DNA from: an uncultured Bacilli bacterium
GTDB taxonomy: Bacteria > Bacillota_I > Bacilli_A > RF39 > UBA660
Direction of reading: 5' to 3'
DNA length: 34,941 nt
NCBI GenBank assembly: GCA_944358115.1
Contig: CALVQH010000008.1
Location: forward strand, 1-34,941
Shown one piece after another: positions 5,890-28,373 of the stretch. The position numbers were made by a program, and so were the translations under genes. The notes beneath the pieces were generated by a model. It ran no database searches, had not been told where the DNA came from, and worked only from the letters and a program-made list of their open reading frames with translations. How positions within the stretch are numbered: the stretch's first letter is position 1; each line of letters opens with the position of its first letter.

Positions 5890-6711
5890 ATGATGAAAAA
5901 GGAATATATATTTAAAAACATAGAGGATGAGCCCTTTATTTATGATTGTAAAATAAAGGGTATCGTTGATAATTATCGTAACACGTTAAAACTTGCAAGT
6001 TATTTTATTATGGCATTTTTAAAAACGCCTCGCTTTGTTTTGGAATTAATCAAAGAAGAGTATAGCCAAAATAATTTTAAAATTGTTTTAAAAGTGATTG
6101 TTAAAAGCAAACAAGCCATTATCATCATCACGAGTGAATCTCTAAAAATTCAATATGAAAAAGAAGAATTAACAATTACTTCGAACTGGGATCATGAATT
6201 CTTATATGCATCCTTAAATCAATATCAAGTAATATTACCAGATAGAAAAATAACAGAGCAAATTCTTCATCACCGCTTAAAAATAGAAATTGAAATCAAA
6301 GATAAAATATGGAGTTTAGATATTCCTTATGAAACAAGCAATTATTTGCACCCTTACTATTTTGCTAGTATCAAAGAATCTACTTCTATTATGGATTTAA
6401 AAGAATTTTATAAAGAGCATTTTTTTCTAAAACAAACCAGTTTTGAAAAAGGTCTGGCAACTACACTATGTATTACCAAACAATTAGCAGATAGTCAAAA
6501 AATTGTATTAGATGAATTTTCGATCCTAGATGGTTTTGTCGATAAATACATATTAAGCTCTTTTAATGAAGGATTATTAATTCAAGCGATTGGTAAACCC
6601 AATGATTCTAATAAAATCACTATTTCGGGTTATCAAGTTCCTTGCCATACCAATATTAATGAAGAAATTGAACGGTTATTAATTCGCAGCAGAAAAGTAA
6701 ATTTTAAATAA
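5890..6711 (+). CDS. Hypothetical protein
   Basis: 273 residues, unrecognised. No signal peptide. A hydrophobic patch (LKLASYFIMAFLKTPRFVLEL, about 34-54) is too interrupted to call a membrane helix. The middle is beta-like (KIVLKVIVKSKQAIIIITS). Start is ATG 5890 or 5893; the upstream GGTGA is very close, so initiation is weak. It begins right after the previous gene's terminator and no separate promoter is obvious, so it may depend on read-through. It precedes sufS by 73 bases, but nothing links it to Fe-S chemistry. Confidence 0.65.
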   Translation: MMKKEYIFKNIEDEPFIYDCKIKGIVDNYRNTLKLASYFIMAFLKTPRFVLELIKEEYSQNNFKIVLKVIVKSKQAIIIITSESLKIQYEKEELTITSNWDHEFLYASLNQYQVILPDRKITEQILHHRLKIEIEIKDKIWSLDIPYETSNYLHPYYFASIKESTSIMDLKEFYKEHFFLKQTSFEKGLATTLCITKQLADSQKIVLDEFSILDGFVDKYILSSFNEGLLIQAIGKPNDSNKITISGYQVPCHTNINEEIERLLIRSRKVNFK

Positions 6712-9317: not shown

Positions 9318-10604
9318 ATGATTGATATTAAATTAATAAGAGAAGAAAGAGAGTTAGTAAAAGAAAATATTAAAAAGAAATTTCAAGACGAGAAATTACC
9401 CCTTGTTGATGAAATTTATGAGTTAGATATTAATTACCGAAATGCCAAAAAAGAAGCCGATGAATTACGAAGCGAAAAAAACAAAAAGAGCGACCAAATT
9501 GGTGCGCTAATGCGGGAAGGAAAAAAGAGTGATGCTTTAAAAATCAAAGAGGAACTTGGTGAAATCTCATTTAAAATAGCCAACCTAGAAGCGAGTGAGG
9601 AAAAATTGGCAAGTGAAATCAAAGAAAAAATGATGCAAATTCCCCAAATAATTGATGATTCTGTTCCCATTGGTAAAGATGATTCTGAAAATGTGGAATT
9701 AGAGCGTTTTGGTGATCCAGTTGTACCAGACTATGAAATCCCTTATCATGCTGATATTTGTGAAAGTCTAAATGGTCTTGATAAAGAAGCTGCTGGCAAA
9801 ACAAGTGGTAATGGTTTTTATTATTTAATGGGCGATATTGCTAGACTTCATTCGGCTATGCTTACTTATGCTCGTGATTTTATGATTGATAAAGGCTTCA
9901 CTTATTGTATCCCTCCATTTATGATTCGTAGTGATGTGGTAAACGGCGTAATGAGTTTTGAAGAAATGGATGCCATGATGTATAAAATTGAAGGAGAAGA
10001 TTTATTTTTAATTGGTACGAGTGAACACTCTATGATTGGTAGATTCAAAGGAGAAATCGTACCAGAAGAATCTCTTCCTATTACCCTTACTTCTTATTCT
10101 CCATGTTTCCGGAAAGAAGTAGGTTCACATGGCCTAGAAGAAAGAGGGTTATATCGTGTTCATCAATTTGAAAAAGAAGAAATGATTGTTCTATGTAAAC
10201 CAGAAGATGCGATGAGTTGGTACGATAAAATGTGGCAATACACCGTTGAATTTTTTAGAAGCCTAGATATTCCTGTCAGAACGCTTGAATGTTGTTCAGG
10301 TGATTTAGCAGACTTAAAAGTAAAATCGTGTGATGTAGAAGCTTGGAGTCCAAGACAACAAAAATATTTTGAAGTAGGTTCATGCTCCACACTTGGAGAA
10401 GCACAAGCAAGACGTTTAGGTATTCGGATGAAAACAAGTGAAGGAAATAAATATGTGGCAACTCTAAATAATACCGTACTTGCTTCTCCACGTGGCCTAA
10501 TCGCTTTCCTTGAAAACAATTATCAAAAAGATGGAAGTATTAAGATTCCTAAAGTTTTACAACCATACATGGGTGGAAAAGAAGTATTAATTCCTAATAA
10601 ATAA
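9318..10604 (+). CDS. serS: Seryl-tRNA synthetase, variant form
   Basis: 428 residues. An N-terminal coiled-coil arm (about 30-100) for tRNA binding is followed by a class II catalytic domain. Motif 2 is FRKEVGSHGLEERGLYRVHQ and motif 3 is SPRGLIAFLEN. The serine-binding region reads IGTSEHSMIG where textbook SerRS has a TAE motif, and later SPRQQKYFEVGSCSTLGEAQ. This is a divergent SerRS type that I recall from some Clostridia; the serine T-box in front supports serine identity. SD AGAAGGAAG precedes the ATG. A terminator follows directly. No second serS is in the window. Confidence 0.9.
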   Translation: MIDIKLIREERELVKENIKKKFQDEKLPLVDEIYELDINYRNAKKEADELRSEKNKKSDQIGALMREGKKSDALKIKEELGEISFKIANLEASEEKLASEIKEKMMQIPQIIDDSVPIGKDDSENVELERFGDPVVPDYEIPYHADICESLNGLDKEAAGKTSGNGFYYLMGDIARLHSAMLTYARDFMIDKGFTYCIPPFMIRSDVVNGVMSFEEMDAMMYKIEGEDLFLIGTSEHSMIGRFKGEIVPEESLPITLTSYSPCFRKEVGSHGLEERGLYRVHQFEKEEMIVLCKPEDAMSWYDKMWQYTVEFFRSLDIPVRTLECCSGDLADLKVKSCDVEAWSPRQQKYFEVGSCSTLGEAQARRLGIRMKTSEGNKYVATLNNTVLASPRGLIAFLENNYQKDGSIKIPKVLQPYMGGKEVLIPNK

Positions 10605-10683: not shown

Positions 10684-12024
10684 GTGTCAAAGTTAAAAAG
10701 TGTGTTAAAAAGTAAGAAGTTTTGGATTATTTTTATTGTTATAATCCTTCTTTTTCTTACTTTTATAATTTTTCAAGTAGATAGGGAAAAGAAGGAAACC
10801 ATAAAAAATCCTTATGAAGTATGGGTTGGAGATGGAGATGAATTAGAACTTATTATTCGCTTTTGGGAAGAATATGATGAATGCTCAAGTTTTCCAGGCA
10901 CTCATATTTGTAGTGATAAAACATTAAAAATTTATGAATTAGAAATTCTTCATAGTAATTTAGCAGATGCGTTTTCAGGGTATTCCGTTGGTGATAAAAC
11001 AGCAATAAGTGAAGTGATTGTTACCTTTTTAGATTATGCTTTTGCAAAGGATACCATAGAGGAAGAGATCAAAATTATTAGTGATTATAAGTTCGATACA
11101 GATTTTGAAAATACGATCAAAGAGCATTTTAACGATGTAAATATTGAGTTTTCTTATGGAGGACTTAGTTATACGGGGGATCCACAAGATAGCTTACTTT
11201 ATTATACAATTACTTTTGATACCAATGGTGGTTCACCAATTGATAGTATTGTTGTAGCAGATAATACTACAATAGAAAAGCCAAGTGATCCAACCAAAGA
11301 GGGATATACTTTTATATACTGGGAGTTAGATGGCGAAGAATATGATTTTACAACCCCAGTAACAGAAGAGATGACTCTAACTGCTGTTTGGAAAGAAAAT
11401 AAGAACTCTTCTAGTAATAATTCATCAAATAATACAGCTAATAATAATTCCAATAACGCAAACAACAACACAACTTCATCCAGCAAAATCAATCTAAATA
11501 ATAATATTAGTGTTACCGAATATCATGTAAATGATGGAACGATGGATTGCTTTTATTATATGTTCGTAACTAATTTAAAAGAAGTTTTCCCAAGTGCTGA
11601 TATTACCAAAATAAACAGTAATCCATCTGAAGTAGATTTCTGGTATAACAAAGACAGACAAGATTATGAAGTAAGTACAGAGGAAATAAATGAATATCTA
11701 AATAATGGCTCTTTAAAAATCAATACATCAGCTGAAAATAACTTTAAAAAGGTTTTAAATAAATATAAAAATGGCAATTATAAAGGAATAGCTAATGTAA
11801 GTTATACCGAAGAAAATCATCGCTTTAGTTTTTCCTACGACTATATTTCCTTTAATGGTTTAAATGTTTCTTCAAATGGAGAAACTGCCAATAAAGAAAT
11901 TAAAAATGCCCTTTCTAGTTCAACTAGATTTAATGGCCCTTGTGGTAGTGCTAGTCATTATGAAAACAAGACTTTAACTGAAGATTTATGTAACAAATAC
12001 AATTTAGACTGCGACAGGTGGTAA
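10684..12024 (+). CDS. Membrane-anchored extracellular protein with InlB-type repeat
   Basis: 446 residues from GTG at 10684, with SD AGGAG (10669-10673) ten bases upstream and a -10-like TATAAT at 10649-10654. A basic N-terminus and one membrane helix (about 12-29, FWIIFIVIILLFLTFIIFQ) predict an N-in, outside-C topology. One Listeria-Bacteroides/InlB B-repeat lies at about 172-238: ITFDTNGGSPIDSI, then KEGYTFIYWELDG and TLTAVWK. A Ser/Asn linker follows (about 240-272), then an unrecognised C-terminal domain containing four cysteines that could form disulfides. First gene of the surface operon; two bases separate it from the CHAP gene. Binding or adhesion is inference from the repeat. Confidence 0.8.
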   Translation: MSKLKSVLKSKKFWIIFIVIILLFLTFIIFQVDREKKETIKNPYEVWVGDGDELELIIRFWEEYDECSSFPGTHICSDKTLKIYELEILHSNLADAFSGYSVGDKTAISEVIVTFLDYAFAKDTIEEEIKIISDYKFDTDFENTIKEHFNDVNIEFSYGGLSYTGDPQDSLLYYTITFDTNGGSPIDSIVVADNTTIEKPSDPTKEGYTFIYWELDGEEYDFTTPVTEEMTLTAVWKENKNSSSNNSSNNTANNNSNNANNNTTSSSKINLNNNISVTEYHVNDGTMDCFYYMFVTNLKEVFPSADITKINSNPSEVDFWYNKDRQDYEVSTEEINEYLNNGSLKINTSAENNFKKVLNKYKNGNYKGIANVSYTEENHRFSFSYDYISFNGLNVSSNGETANKEIKNALSSSTRFNGPCGSASHYENKTLTEDLCNKYNLDCDRW

Positions 12025-12025
12025 G

Positions 12026-12973
12026 ATGAAAAAAATATTAAAATTAGTTGTACTATTGGTAGTATTAACTTTTGGCTTTACAAGTCCTGTTAGGGCAGCA
12101 TCAAACCCCTATGGAAAATATCAATCTTTATATGGAATAAACACAGTTAGATGTACTTGGTATGCATGGCAGCAAGCTTATGAACACACTGGTGTCGCTC
12201 TACCTAGTTGGGGTAATGCCCAAACCTGGTATAATAGCGCCATAAATGATGGCTACAAAGTAGGGAGTGAGGCAAAGCCAAATTCGATAGTAGTTTACTC
12301 ATCTAGTGATGGTTATGGCCATGTTGGCTTTGTTGTTTCGGTAGAAGGAAATATCATGATAGTAAACGAAGCTGGAATCGTAACAGAAGAAAACGAAGGC
12401 ATTGTAAACGGATCAAAAAAATATACAACCGCTGGTAACTTAATTGGTTTTATCTATCTAGAGGAGGCCCGAACGAATAACAAGACATCTTCCAATAATA
12501 CGAATGAATTGGATGCAAATAACAATACGACAACAGAGAAAAAATCTAGCAATAATAATCTAGCTAAACTAAGTATGGATGGCCTAGATTTCACTTTTAA
12601 TCCTGAAATAACCGAATATCAAGTAGAAGTAGACTATGACACACCAATTATTAAAATTAGTGCTACTCCAGAAGAAGATACGGCAACGATTTTTGGAACA
12701 GGGGAAAAAGCTTTAAAAGTGGGAGAAAATAATTACACCATTACAGTTACTGCTGAAGATGGCTCTCAAAAAGAATATAGTATCAAAATTACTAGAGCGA
12801 TGCCTCAAACACTCGATCATATAGAAGTAAAGGAAGAGAAGAAAGCGGATATCAATATTTTCTTATTAGGAGCAATTCTTCTTCTAATCTGTCTCGCCAT
12901 AATAGGAATCATTGCTTTAATGAAAAGAAAGAAGAGAAATAAAAAAGGAAGTGTGAAAAATGAAGAAAAATAA
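12026..12973 (+). CDS. Secreted, membrane-anchored CHAP-domain cell-wall hydrolase
   Basis: 315 residues. Signal peptide 1-24 (MKKILKLVVLLVVLTFGFTS, cleavage likely after PVRA). The CHAP domain (about 35-150) has its nucleophile Cys43 in VRCTWYAW, His99 in GYGHVGFVV, and the third polar residue at Asn114/Glu115. CHAP enzymes are amidases or endopeptidases that cut peptidoglycan. An Asn/Thr-rich linker follows, then a cadherin-like beta-sandwich (about 178-258, LSMDGLDFTFNPEITEYQVE to EYSIKITR), and a C-terminal membrane helix (about 274-297) with a basic tail. It would sit on the outer face of the membrane facing the wall. It overlaps the protease gene by 14 bases. Confidence 0.87.
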   Translation: MKKILKLVVLLVVLTFGFTSPVRAASNPYGKYQSLYGINTVRCTWYAWQQAYEHTGVALPSWGNAQTWYNSAINDGYKVGSEAKPNSIVVYSSSDGYGHVGFVVSVEGNIMIVNEAGIVTEENEGIVNGSKKYTTAGNLIGFIYLEEARTNNKTSSNNTNELDANNNTTTEKKSSNNNLAKLSMDGLDFTFNPEITEYQVEVDYDTPIIKISATPEEDTATIFGTGEKALKVGENNYTITVTAEDGSQKEYSIKITRAMPQTLDHIEVKEEKKADINIFLLGAILLLICLAIIGIIALMKRKKRNKKGSVKNEEK

Positions 12974-14957
12974 AAAAATAATATTAGGAGTGGTAATTGC
13001 TCTTGCGCTCTTATTCATTATCATTTATTTAGCTTTTTTTAAGAAATCAGAACCAAATGAAGAAGAAAGAGTCAAAAAATTACTACAAGATTATGAAACA
13101 GAAATCGGTTCTTTGAGTAATTATACTTTATCTAACCAATATGAAGACACTTACAAGTTAACGCAAAGTTTTAACGGGATTGAAGTATATGGTGGGGGAT
13201 TAACAACAATCGAAAAAGATGAAAAAGTAGCTAAAATTTTAAATTATTCTTATCAAATTCCTGATGACTTTAATACTAATCCCCAAAGCAAACAAGAGGA
13301 TATACTTGCAGTTGCTAAAGACTATGCTGGTGAAGATGCCTTACTTTTAAATAGCAAGCTAATGATCTATCCTCTAAGTGCAACTGAATTTACTTTAGCT
13401 TATCTCTTTGAATTTGCAAATGGAACTTTAATTATTAGCGATAAAGACCAATCAATCATCAGTAGTCCTAGTGTATTTGACACAACCACTTTATATCGTG
13501 AACCTCTAACAGAGGATGATATAAAAGAGTATCAAATAGCCAATCAACAATATCAATTATATGACCGAACAAGAAATATTGAAGTATATACAATTAAAGA
13601 TAGCTACGAATATATTCCCAGCATTAAGTTTATGCAGAATAATACAAGCTACTATAAAGAAATTACTTGGAAAAACACAGAACAAGCAAATGAGTTAGAT
13701 TCTTATATTGCTATTAAAACAATGCAAAATATAGCCAAAGTATATGATTATTACAAAGAAAATTTTGACTTTCGCTCTATTAAATTAAATGAAAATTATA
13801 AATTGAAAGTATATACCAATCTAGATAAAATCAAAGATGGAAACTCTTATTATCCTTTTTCCAATAATGCAGCCTTATTTTATTTTAATTCTGAAGATTT
13901 ACGCATTTATTTTGGCTCTGAAAATTTATTTAATGAAGACTTAGAAGTAGTATCTCATGAATATACCCATGGCTATTTTAGATTGATTGTTGAACCAGAT
14001 GGAAGTGAGTATAATAATGCGATAAATGAAGGATATGCAGATACAATGGGCTTAATCATTGGGGCTTATTATCGTGATGGTTCTTTAGATGGCACCATTG
14101 CTAATCGAAATGTAGCAGATAGTACCTTCAAATTAAGTGATTATACCCTTGATACCGAAGAACATGATGCAAGTTTTTTAATCTCTCGTGTAGCTTATTT
14201 AATGAGTATCGATGAAAAACTAAATATGGATCTTTATGACTTAGGAAATTTATGGTTTAAATCATTATATAATTTACCTAAAAATATTGTAAATTATAAT
14301 GATGTAGAAGCCTCTGTTTTAACAGAAGCTATCATTCTCGGTTATAGCAAAGAAGAGATAAAAAGAATGGCTAAAATCTTTGAAAGTGTAGGTTATCCTA
14401 ATTTATATGATATCATCATGAAAGACGTAGTAAATATAAGATATGGACATACTTCTGTATCGGAAGAAAATAGCAAAATAAATGAAGAAGAAATTTATAT
14501 GTCTTACTTAAAAAATAAAGAATATGAAAGCCTAACAGCCGATTGGATAACGGCTCCCACTAAATACGCTTTATATGATTTAGATGGCAATGACATCTTA
14601 GAACTCATGATTATCTCTGATGATTATGGTTTTGGCAATACGCTTATTTTAACCTATGATCCAGTAAAAGAAAAAATAGAAAAAATTTGGGATCAATATA
14701 TTTATGGTGGCCTAAGATATCATGAAGGAAGAAAAGAAATTGTTTATAATCAAACAAAACCATTTGCAGGGTCAAGTGAAGCTACCTTTACCAGTTTAGT
14801 AAATGGTGAAATAGTAACAGTAAGAAGTGTATATCAAGATGGCGAAACTTACTATACGTTAGAAGGAAAAGATCGAAAAGAAATTACGAACGAAGAATAT
14901 AGAGCATATTTTGATGACTTAATTTACTTTGATGAAAAAGATTTAAGTAGTATTTAG
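12960..14957 (+). CDS. Membrane-anchored M4 (thermolysin-like) metalloprotease
   Basis: 665 residues with an N-terminal membrane helix (about 6-28) and extracellular remainder. An FTP-type propeptide region (about 45-110, FNGIEVYGGGLTTIEKD) precedes the peptidase. Zinc site: His333-Glu334-Tyr-Thr-His337 (HEYTH) and Glu357 in NEGYAD, exactly 24 residues after the first His as in thermolysin; Asp361 and a catalytic-His equivalent His402 (EEHDASFLISRVAYLM) are also present. So it looks active. The C-terminal ~125 residues (from about 536, YALYDLDGNDILELMI) resemble a calcium-binding-like beta domain seen on secreted proteins. It is translationally coupled to the CHAP gene; it may process wall or operon proteins (inference). 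Confidence 0.87.
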   Translation: MKKNKKIILGVVIALALLFIIIYLAFFKKSEPNEEERVKKLLQDYETEIGSLSNYTLSNQYEDTYKLTQSFNGIEVYGGGLTTIEKDEKVAKILNYSYQIPDDFNTNPQSKQEDILAVAKDYAGEDALLLNSKLMIYPLSATEFTLAYLFEFANGTLIISDKDQSIISSPSVFDTTTLYREPLTEDDIKEYQIANQQYQLYDRTRNIEVYTIKDSYEYIPSIKFMQNNTSYYKEITWKNTEQANELDSYIAIKTMQNIAKVYDYYKENFDFRSIKLNENYKLKVYTNLDKIKDGNSYYPFSNNAALFYFNSEDLRIYFGSENLFNEDLEVVSHEYTHGYFRLIVEPDGSEYNNAINEGYADTMGLIIGAYYRDGSLDGTIANRNVADSTFKLSDYTLDTEEHDASFLISRVAYLMSIDEKLNMDLYDLGNLWFKSLYNLPKNIVNYNDVEASVLTEAIILGYSKEEIKRMAKIFESVGYPNLYDIIMKDVVNIRYGHTSVSEENSKINEEEIYMSYLKNKEYESLTADWITAPTKYALYDLDGNDILELMIISDDYGFGNTLILTYDPVKEKIEKIWDQYIYGGLRYHEGRKEIVYNQTKPFAGSSEATFTSLVNGEIVTVRSVYQDGETYYTLEGKDRKEITNEEYRAYFDDLIYFDEKDLSSI

Positions 14958-14965
14958 GAGATTCA

Positions 14966-15474
14966 ATGAAAAAAAGTTTATGGATCATATTTATAATAGT
15001 AGTAATAGCATTAATTACAGCAGGTCTTATTTATGCTCATATAATAGCGCAAGATAATTACAATCATAAAAAAGAAGAACCATTATTAAATGATATAAAT
15101 TTAGAAGAAATAACTGACGAAAATGGCTTAATCTTTAAAATCACAAGAAATGATGCTTATTCGGATTGCAATTTTGTTTTTCTAAAAGTATTAATGATGG
15201 AATCTACCAATTAACAACGACACAACTGACCCAAAACAGCAAAATCATTCATCCCATACTTGAATATGGAAAGCCAACCACAGGAACATATACATATGAT
15301 ATCAAAGAGATATTTCTCAATTTAAAAAAGGCAAATAAAAAATATTATATCATTACAACGGGAACCGGCGAAACTTATACGACCGATCAAGAAAATGAAA
15401 AATTAAATGAATTTTTAGAAGAAATTGATGTTAATTTAGATGCTTGCTTGCAAAAAAAAGCAAAAGAGGAATAG
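14966..15474 (+). pseudogene. Small membrane-anchored protein gene split by a frameshift in a T run
   Basis: The first frame (14966-15214) encodes a membrane helix (SLWIIFIIVVIALITAGLIY, about 4-23) and an extracellular stretch up to SDCNFVF, then leaves frame. A second frame (from about 15166 to 15474) continues naturally: SKSINDGIYQLTTTQ to LDACLQKKAKEE. The break is at TTTTGTTTTTC (15172-15182); one more T in the five-T run, or a ribosomal -1 slip there, gives one ~169-residue protein. Two cysteines, one each side of the break, could pair. SD GGAG precedes the ATG by five bases. Last gene of the surface operon. Real mutation, phase-variable tract, programmed shift and read error are all open. 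Confidence 0.7.
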
Positions 15475-15511: not shown

Positions 15512-15877
15512 ATGAGGAACATAGAAGAAATGTTATATTCTTTATCGAAATCTAAATTTAGAAGTAGTTTTCATTTAAAAGAAAAAGAGAGAACTTACAT
15601 TAAAGAAAAAGGTTTAGATGTAATAAGAAAACACGCTTATGATTTATTAGAAAAAAGACTTGCTCCGGCTTGTATTCCTAATGACGGAAAACAAACACCT
15701 ATGAGAGGGCATCCTGTCTTTATTGCTCAGCATGCCACTGCTGCATGTTGTAGAAATTGTCTTGCCAAATGGTATCATATTCCCAAAGGAAGAGATTTAA
15801 CCAAAGCAGAATTAGATTACATTGTAGATGTAATTATGTCCTGGATTCAAAAAGAAATGGAAAATGGCAAAAAATAA
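15512..15877 (+). CDS. DUF4186 family protein
   Basis: 121 residues matching the DUF4186 family over its whole length: FRSSFHLKEKERTYIKEKGL, RLAPACIPNDGKQTPMRGHP, VFIAQHATAACCRNCLAKWY, and a C-terminal helix DYIVDVIMSWIQKEME. The conserved Cys and His residues (HATAACCRNCL) suggest metal binding or a redox site. The family has no established function to my knowledge. No membrane segment. The start is set by the SD-hairpin arrangement just upstream. It is 47 bases before an unrelated ABC exporter operon. Confidence 0.85.
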   Translation: MRNIEEMLYSLSKSKFRSSFHLKEKERTYIKEKGLDVIRKHAYDLLEKRLAPACIPNDGKQTPMRGHPVFIAQHATAACCRNCLAKWYHIPKGRDLTKAELDYIVDVIMSWIQKEMENGKK

Positions 15878-27409: not shown

Positions 27410-27433
27410 AAGTCATAGTTTTCTATGGCTTTT
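27408..27433. terminator. Bidirectional terminator shared by the ABC operon and gerM
   Basis: AAAAGTCATAG (27408-27418) and CTATGGCTTTT (27423-27433), one G-T pair, loop TTTT. A-rich and T-rich flanks make it work in both directions. It overlaps both stop codons: TAA 27407-27409 (plus) and the minus-strand TAG at 27423-27425. Confidence 0.78.
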
Positions 27434-28373
27434 CATTTGCTTTAAAAGTTTCTATCACTTCATCATCTACTTTAAAAATAACTTCATCGACATGTAAGGT
27501 ATCTTGGATTGATAGAGAAATGGAGTATTTTACTTCTTCTAAAATATTTTGCTCGGTAAAATCATCAAAAATAGCGTTATTAAAACTAAGAGTTACTTGA
27601 TTTTCTAATTCTTCGTAGCTTTCTAATTCCACACTACTAGCAAGATAACTCATTAAATTGGTTTCGTAAATAGGACTTGATTTTAATTCATCGATGATAA
27701 TTTCAATTTTATTATCTCCATGATCATTTTCTAATTTAGTGACAGGTACATAATAGATAAAATCATCAAATTCCCCAATATAATAAACTGTTGTTTTTGT
27801 TATATCTTTTAAATTCGTAATATCATAAATTTTATTAATTCCATAGCTTCGATCTAGTGTATTCGGTAGATGAATATGACTTTGTGGTAATTCTTCTAAT
27901 TTTTCTCCTTCAACAAAAATCATAATTTGTTCAATTCCATTAATATCTGTTAAAGTATAAATAAGGGATTCTATTAATTTTTCTTCCATCTCTTTTTTAA
28001 CTTGTAGTATCTCTTGTGAAAAATTTAGTTTTAATAATCCATTTTCTAAAGAAATATCTATTAATTTTGTATTTTGAGGAATAATAGGCTCGAAGTGTTC
28101 ATTTAAATATTCACTTTTATCACTTCCAATGGTTAAGGCATCAATAAGTTCCTTTGCTAAACTAATTTCATCTTTTCCTGTAGTAGCAATCGTTGTTCTA
28201 ACAATATATTGATCGGGATTTAATAAATAAATAGGGGTGGCATCCACACTTACATACTCGATATCTTGATGGATGGGCATGTATTCTTCTTCTGGTAAAA
28301 AATATAACACCATCACAATAAGAAGTGCCATAGTAGAAACCATAATTCTTCTTAAAGCTGATTTTTTAAGCAT
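27423..28373 (-). CDS. gerM: GerM-like spore protein with two GerMN domains
   Basis: 316 residues. A basic N-terminus and hydrophobic helix (about 10-27, MVSTMALLIVMVLYFLP) anchor an extracellular/intermembrane part. Two GerMN modules follow (about 50-170 and 190-310), the first with LAKELIDALTIGSDKSEYLN and LKLNFSQEIL, the second with IIIDELKSSPIYETNLMSYL and VTLSFNNAIFDD. GerM is a mother-cell sporulation protein involved in spore cortex formation, germination and the SpoIIIA-SpoIIQ complex in Bacillus. Unlike Bacillus GerM there is no lipobox Cys; it looks membrane-anchored. It follows gerE, as these two lie near each other in Bacillus, but a terminator separates them. SD GGTGAT is upstream. 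Confidence 0.85.
   Translation of the reverse strand: MLKKSALRRIMVSTMALLIVMVLYFLPEEEYMPIHQDIEYVSVDATPIYLLNPDQYIVRTTIATTGKDEISLAKELIDALTIGSDKSEYLNEHFEPIIPQNTKLIDISLENGLLKLNFSQEILQVKKEMEEKLIESLIYTLTDINGIEQIMIFVEGEKLEELPQSHIHLPNTLDRSYGINKIYDITNLKDITKTTVYYIGEFDDFIYYVPVTKLENDHGDNKIEIIIDELKSSPIYETNLMSYLASSVELESYEELENQVTLSFNNAIFDDFTEQNILEEVKYSISLSIQDTLHVDEVIFKVDDEVIETFKANEKP

Follow-up and report, generated by a model that had tools for sequence, protein, structure and literature searches.

A conserved gene pair encoding a putative CHAP wall hydrolase and a membrane partner with an undescribed C-terminal domain

The window, a stretch of 34,941 nucleotides, is one of the 69 contigs of a low-GC genome, which is incomplete and totals 1.3 Mb. 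It harbors a two-gene module, which is conserved and looks obligate as a pair when gene order is compared among relatives. The module codes for a membrane-anchored protein, hereafter called the partner, and for a putative CHAP wall hydrolase directly downstream. The pairing, the domain architecture, the intact catalytic residues and the loss of a self-cleavage site in CHAP-linked partners are apparent from the sequences. We propose, with a probability of about 0.6, a function in which the tethered hydrolase is positioned or gated by its dedicated membrane partner. A sequence-only reading had joined four genes of this locus into one unit. Anchored surface proteins, a wall hydrolase among them, do form an undescribed set here, but the unit had been wrongly delimited. 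How cells control their wall hydrolases has long been asked, and the controllers known to date stem mostly from a few model organisms. To these the pair adds a candidate controller that is tightly linked to its hydrolase and has an undescribed, confidently predicted domain; it belongs to a large uncultured family of bacteria.

Genes of the locus

The module is preceded by the housekeeping genes infC, rplT, an alanyl-tRNA-synthetase-like gene and serS, and followed by a DUF4186 gene, an ABC-2 transporter, rimM and trmD. Unless stated otherwise, all features are located on the plus strand. The serS gene (9318..10604; TIGR00414 above cut-off) and the DUF4186 gene (15512..15877; PF13811, E 3.2e-52) form the upstream and downstream borders of a variable slot. 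Three large open reading frames of the earlier four-gene set are real (10684-12024, 12026-12973 and 12960-14957), but the fourth gene is not intact. Domain searches with Pfam returned the expected domains above cut-off, namely Flg_new/B-repeat in the first product, CHAP and Cadherin-like in the second and Peptidase_M4 in the third. Anchoring by one hydrophobic helix each was likewise borne out (residues 6-36 of the partner, 272-303 of the CHAP protein, 3-31 of the M4 protein and 1-30 of the small ORF); the CHAP protein carries an N-terminal signal peptide in addition.

The partner gene (10684..12024), delineated by ORF, Pfam and structure, encodes a B-repeat ("InlB-repeat") membrane protein of 446 aa. 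From the N- to the C-terminus it consists of a TM anchor deduced from hydropathy (residues 6-36; 10699..10791), an RsgI-like periplasmic or SEAL-fold ectodomain lacking the Asn-Pro cleavage motif (about residues 42-165; 10807..11178), a Listeria-Bacteroides (internalin B-type) repeat (residues 174-235; 11203..11388; PF09479, E 1.6e-15), an Asn/Ser linker and a new C-terminal domain of 182 aa (residues 265-446; 11476..12021), which ends in CDRW. Direct reading of the junction revealed that the hexanucleotide AGGTGG (12016..12021) represents the final two codons of the partner (Arg-Trp) as well as the apparent Shine-Dalgarno sequence of the hydrolase gene. The TAA stop codon is separated from the following ATG by a single base, and the two genes do not overlap. 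The resemblance of AGG TGG to a ribosome binding site suggests translational coupling.

The CHAP gene (12026..12973) encodes 315 aa comprising a signal peptide, the CHAP domain (PF05257, E 2e-16; 60.7 bits versus a Pfam cut-off of 26), a Cadherin-like domain (PF12733, E 1.3e-13), a C-terminal TM helix and a basic tail. The catalytic residues Cys43 and His99 are intact exactly at the positions claimed before. Cysteine and histidine were found in 29 of 29 readable orthologue rows, and Glu115 in 32 of 32. On these grounds the protein is probably an exported, membrane-anchored peptidoglycan hydrolase with a Cys43-His99-Glu115 active site. Cadherin-like repeats matching that of the CHAP protein also occur, in some 25 copies at least, in a reading frame of about 5643 aa in another genome (G035:C8, L017).

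The third gene (12960..14957) encodes an M4 (thermolysin-type) metalloprotease of 665 aa with an N-terminal TM helix and an FTP-like propeptide, and overlaps the CHAP gene by 14 bases, as reported. Assignment to M4 is backed by PF01447 (E 1.1e-9; 39.3 bits versus a cut-off of 22.4) and by the zinc site, in which the HExxH motif (HEYTH, residues 333-337), Glu357 at +24 and His402 are all present as described in the sequence-only reading. A phmmer comparison of the M4 protein with PDB gave no match.

Conservation of the pair and turnover of its neighbours

Within the genus, partner and CHAP genes adjoin in 11 of 36 genomes, always in the same order and behind serS. Full-length CHAP orthologues (59-66% identity) and partner orthologues with the C-terminal domain (C-domain) were restricted to the same 11 genomes. 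The order sample contributed 22 further loci in 7 further genera with the CHAP gene directly 3′ of the partner gene, which brings the total to 33 loci (8 genera, all of one family), a count from draft genomes throughout, in which contig ends hide some neighbours. The CHAP start codon is usually located 1-5 bases past the partner stop codon. A search for CHAP domains in the same genomes retrieved near-whole-domain matches beside C-domain genes; the other matches were mostly partial and derived from different CHAP proteins. Across the genus the borders of the slot between serS and DUF4186 recur and the pair stays together, while the remaining contents vary. Flavodoxin-like proteins, SDR (short-chain) dehydrogenases and small TM proteins were encountered there, and in G029 the slot is almost empty. 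The association of partner and CHAP genes exceeds chance, which does not apply to the four-gene set; the adjacency inside one family is due in part to shared descent.

The linkage of M4 and CHAP genes, by which the four-gene proposal could be judged, was not conserved, while the same comparison strongly favored the InlB-repeat/CHAP pair. Relatives of the M4 protease were detected in 2 of 60 relatives and, counting the window genome, in 3 of 288 genomes of the order, and the other members share 36-37% identity with the window protein. An M4 gene in the serS-DUF4186 slot, adjoining CHAP, is confined to the window genome, and none was present in any other pair locus read. Three other M4 neighbourhoods (G014, G222 and L063) differ from that of the window and from one another. 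The M4 gene adjoins a gene for a WG-repeat protein in G014 and for an unrelated enzyme in G222. On L063, a Bacilli metagenome contig, two tandem TM-anchored M4-type proteases are encoded near a HerA-like ATPase (L063:4842-9811). A search of plasmids and viral contigs for M4 relatives found none. The M4 gene is thus a species-level, lineage-specific addition behind the pair and outside the conserved unit.

These data bear on the idea that the hydrolase and the InlB-repeat protein are substrates of the M4 enzyme, which would process or shed them. Both active sites are intact, and the 14-base overlap suggests co-expression in the window organism; against this stand the single genome with an M4 gene beside CHAP, the 3 carriers among 288 genomes and their unrelated neighbourhoods. 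We consider M4 control of the two proteins very unlikely and would give a working role of the protease in the unit just as little credit. As a conserved system, an M4-controlled unit is refuted by the gene neighbourhoods compared here. The notion of protease-controlled wall remodelling or shedding likewise found no comparative support, and the missing self-cleavage site in the RsgI-like domain of the CHAP-linked partner points away from shedding.

The small membrane protein had been taken for an intact fourth gene (14966..15474), but this region divides into two ORFs, 14966-15214 and 15166-15474, which differ in frame. In the sister genomes G030 and G028 a single reading frame of 165-169 aa covers both halves, and the window gene is therefore frameshifted, unless the assembly is wrong. 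The frameshift near 15190 may reflect decay or an assembly error. The small gene of G009 (L071:2820-3331) is also broken, at a different place from that in the window genome (G000). As the small gene accompanies some CHAP loci and is missing from others, it is a facultative neighbour; together with the solitary M4 gene this led to rejection of the four-gene operon on comparison of the relatives' neighbourhoods. A TM-anchored DUF1287 protein is encoded in this slot in G004 and G020, directly 5′ of the small-gene homologue (L078:3463-4874 and L079:3568-4973). This protein may be NlpC/P60-like, which would make it a second putative hydrolase beside the small membrane gene.

Ectodomain and C-terminal domain of the partner

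The N-terminal part of a full-length AlphaFold2 model of the partner was of fair quality (pLDDT about 80). In comparisons with Foldseek and VIA-align, residues 42-170 corresponded to the periplasmic domain of Bacillus subtilis RsgI (8t9n; Z 10.4; 110 residues aligned at rmsd 2.9) and, with Z 7.2-7.7, the ectodomain to three RsgI proteins of C. thermocellum (8her, 8u9o and 8hep). Residues 171-240 matched the internalin B-repeat (Z 9.6 to 2y5p). One partner orthologue scored with Pfam RsgI_M (E 6.6e-4, under the curated cut-off). The model thus indicates an RsgI periplasmic (SEAL) fold for the N-terminal ectodomain. With internalin-type surface proteins the partner has one B-repeat in common; in contrast to these it is anchored by a TM helix and not to the wall. 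It displays no leucine-rich repeats, and PF09479 is its sole Pfam domain.

RsgI periplasmic domains self-cleave (PMC12203970). The cut can be located between Asn and Pro, since the chains B of 8her, 8u9o and 8hep start with the proline of Asn-Pro-Ser. Genuine RsgI proteins of the genus, read from L133 and L134, retain Asn-Pro (IGIDVNPSLEL in L133); alignment rows L122-L126, which represent wrong ORFs, were disregarded. In contrast, the motif is absent from the window partner and from all CHAP-linked forms. Conversely, all 15 proteins with an RsgI-like domain lacking Asn-Pro adjoin CHAP.

The partner resembles RsgI anti-sigma-I factors (PF23750) in having a TM helix followed by the same ectodomain fold, and it might accordingly be regarded as a TM sensor, which reads the state of the wall and relays it into the cell through regulated intramembrane proteolysis, with CHAP as output or input. 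RsgI proteins are known sensors, here too the fold adjoins the membrane, and C. thermocellum RsgI8 has no Asn-Pro motif either, so loss of the motif alone does not exclude signalling (PMC12203970). Unlike RsgI, however, the partner has no cytoplasmic anti-sigma domain, since only a few residues precede the TM helix that starts near residue 6, and a Pfam match to the RsgI N-terminus is missing. Its neighbours are serS and CHAP and not a sigma (SigI) gene. Finally, 17 of the 32 CHAP-linked partners are devoid of the RsgI-like domain, which is therefore dispensable for the role of the pair. Together with the loss of Asn-Pro, these features make inward signalling most improbable. Common to the CHAP-linked partners are the TM helix and the C-domain, nearly always accompanied by the B-repeat.

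A profile built from the last 182 residues of the partner was searched in 337 genomes of the order. Relatives of the C-domain occurred in 44 of them, distributed over 18 genera of one family. In a phylum-wide sample of 392 genomes only two carriers were present, again from the same family. The proteins fall into three classes. The first comprises TM-anchored proteins directly followed by CHAP (the 33 loci in 8 genera, 32 of them tabulated). Members of the second class are likewise TM-anchored and have an RsgI-like domain in which Asn-Pro is retained (VKINPL etc.); the third consists of lipoproteins of about 210 aa. CHAP was linked to none of the 6 tabulated members of the second class and to none of the 6 of the third, as opposed to 32 of 32 in the first, a sorting far from random that is counted, however, on related sequences. 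Phylogenetically, the C-domains of the CHAP-linked proteins group into two well-supported clades (18 and 14 rows), which would fit either an old coupling with a loss or two independent origins. The free lipoproteins without CHAP imply that the C-domain must have another binding role as well. They were found in L137, L146, L147, L148, L170 and L171. Proteins from L149, L152, L156, L167, L169 and L118 combine an RsgI-type ectodomain containing Asn-Pro with a short cytoplasmic tail without anti-sigma domain; they are possibly self-cleaving surface proteins.

In the full-length model, calculated from 11 alignment rows, the C-domain was poorly resolved (pLDDT about 50). A model of residues 265-446 based on 45 sequences reached a pLDDT of 91.1 and a pTM of 0.85. 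Comparison with PDB and viral model libraries returned no confident match to a known fold; the best VIA hit had a Z of 4.7 (a partial ferredoxin-like match), and Foldseek reached an E of 0.17 at best and a probability of at most 0.25. Sequence searches against Pfam, NCBIfam and PDB gave only scattered chance-level matches. The C-domain is thus undescribed, and with weak matches only, its fold is not thereby proven new. All 45 members terminate in Cys-x-Arg/Lys-Trp, and Cys436 and Cys443 are invariant (45 of 45). Cys289 and Cys420 covary, being both present in 30 and both absent in 14 members with one exception. The invariant and the covarying cysteines suggest two disulfides, which probably stabilise the domain. 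The explanation that the terminal Arg-Trp is kept solely as Shine-Dalgarno DNA was rejected, as lipoprotein forms without an overlapping gene share the ending; the terminus is therefore conserved at the protein level.

Proposed role of the pair

The strongest rival to a partner that positions or gates the hydrolase is an adhesin or binding protein sharing an operon with an autolysin through a common surface role, with neither contact nor mutual regulation. Co-transcription could reflect such joint surface use. B-repeats and Cadherin-like domains are indeed common among the surface proteins of these genomes, and linkage alone does not prove contact. The distinctness of the CHAP-linked class, with no Asn-Pro, no lipoproteins and CHAP directly downstream in every tabulated case, and the persistence of the pair amid changing slot contents speak against this reading. 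We regard a shared role without contact as possible but rather doubtful.

We favor a tethered hydrolase with a dedicated partner. According to this proposal, the hydrolase would be exported, held in the membrane by its C-terminal TM helix and active in cutting peptidoglycan. Translation of the partner would immediately precede that of the hydrolase, the genes being about one base apart, and the partner would reach outward from its membrane anchor via the B-repeat to end in the new C-domain. Most likely this domain would bind either the hydrolase or a ligand of the wall or surface, and in this way the partner would position or gate the hydrolase at the cell surface. A more specific version is tentative: an RsgI-type sensor ectodomain may have lost self-cleavage on coupling to the hydrolase, with the new C-domain binding and gating CHAP or a wall target. 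If true, it would represent a new mode of cell-wall hydrolase control. The contrast between paralogues that keep Asn-Pro and have no hydrolase and those that lack it and always have one provides a testable idea on RsgI-type ectodomains outside sigma-factor signalling.

Known CHAP hydrolases of the PcsB/ScrM/SsaA type (PF05257) share with the window protein the CHAP fold, the Cys-His-Glu residues and export. NCBIfam matches to PcsB (E 9.8e-10) and ScrM (E 1.5e-8) were both far under the equivalog cut-offs, and PDB neighbours of the CHAP protein include PcsB (4cgk) and the CHAP structure 2k3a. In contrast to this type, the window hydrolase has a C-terminal Cadherin-like domain, a TM anchor and a dedicated membrane partner. 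PcsB has an N-terminal coiled coil, for which the window protein leaves no room. FtsEX-PcsB is an example of a wall hydrolase with a membrane partner. Another is EssH of the T7SS (PMC13059805). The general principle is that a membrane protein or machinery governs or localises a CHAP hydrolase. Unlike in these systems, the window partner is a single-pass protein of unrelated domain composition, and its control of the hydrolase is a proposal.

Pairs of a wall hydrolase and a partner gene are also a known effector-immunity layout. By analogy the hydrolase might attack neighbouring cells with the partner serving as immunity protein. The C-terminal TM anchor and the high conservation of the hydrolase, which is not polymorphic, speak against such antagonism, as do the location among housekeeping genes, the lack of orphan partner arrays and a search of viral contigs that yielded no C-domain relatives. 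Of all readings we judge this one the least plausible, with hardly any weight.

Two further genes of the window were noted. A protein of 273 aa without Pfam match (5890-6711) is only 31-38% identical to the homologues at the same position; the adjoining genes show much stronger conservation, and this protein appears to be fast evolving. On the minus strand, a protein with a Germane (sporulation/germination) domain is encoded at 27423-28373 (PF10646, E 9.7e-26).
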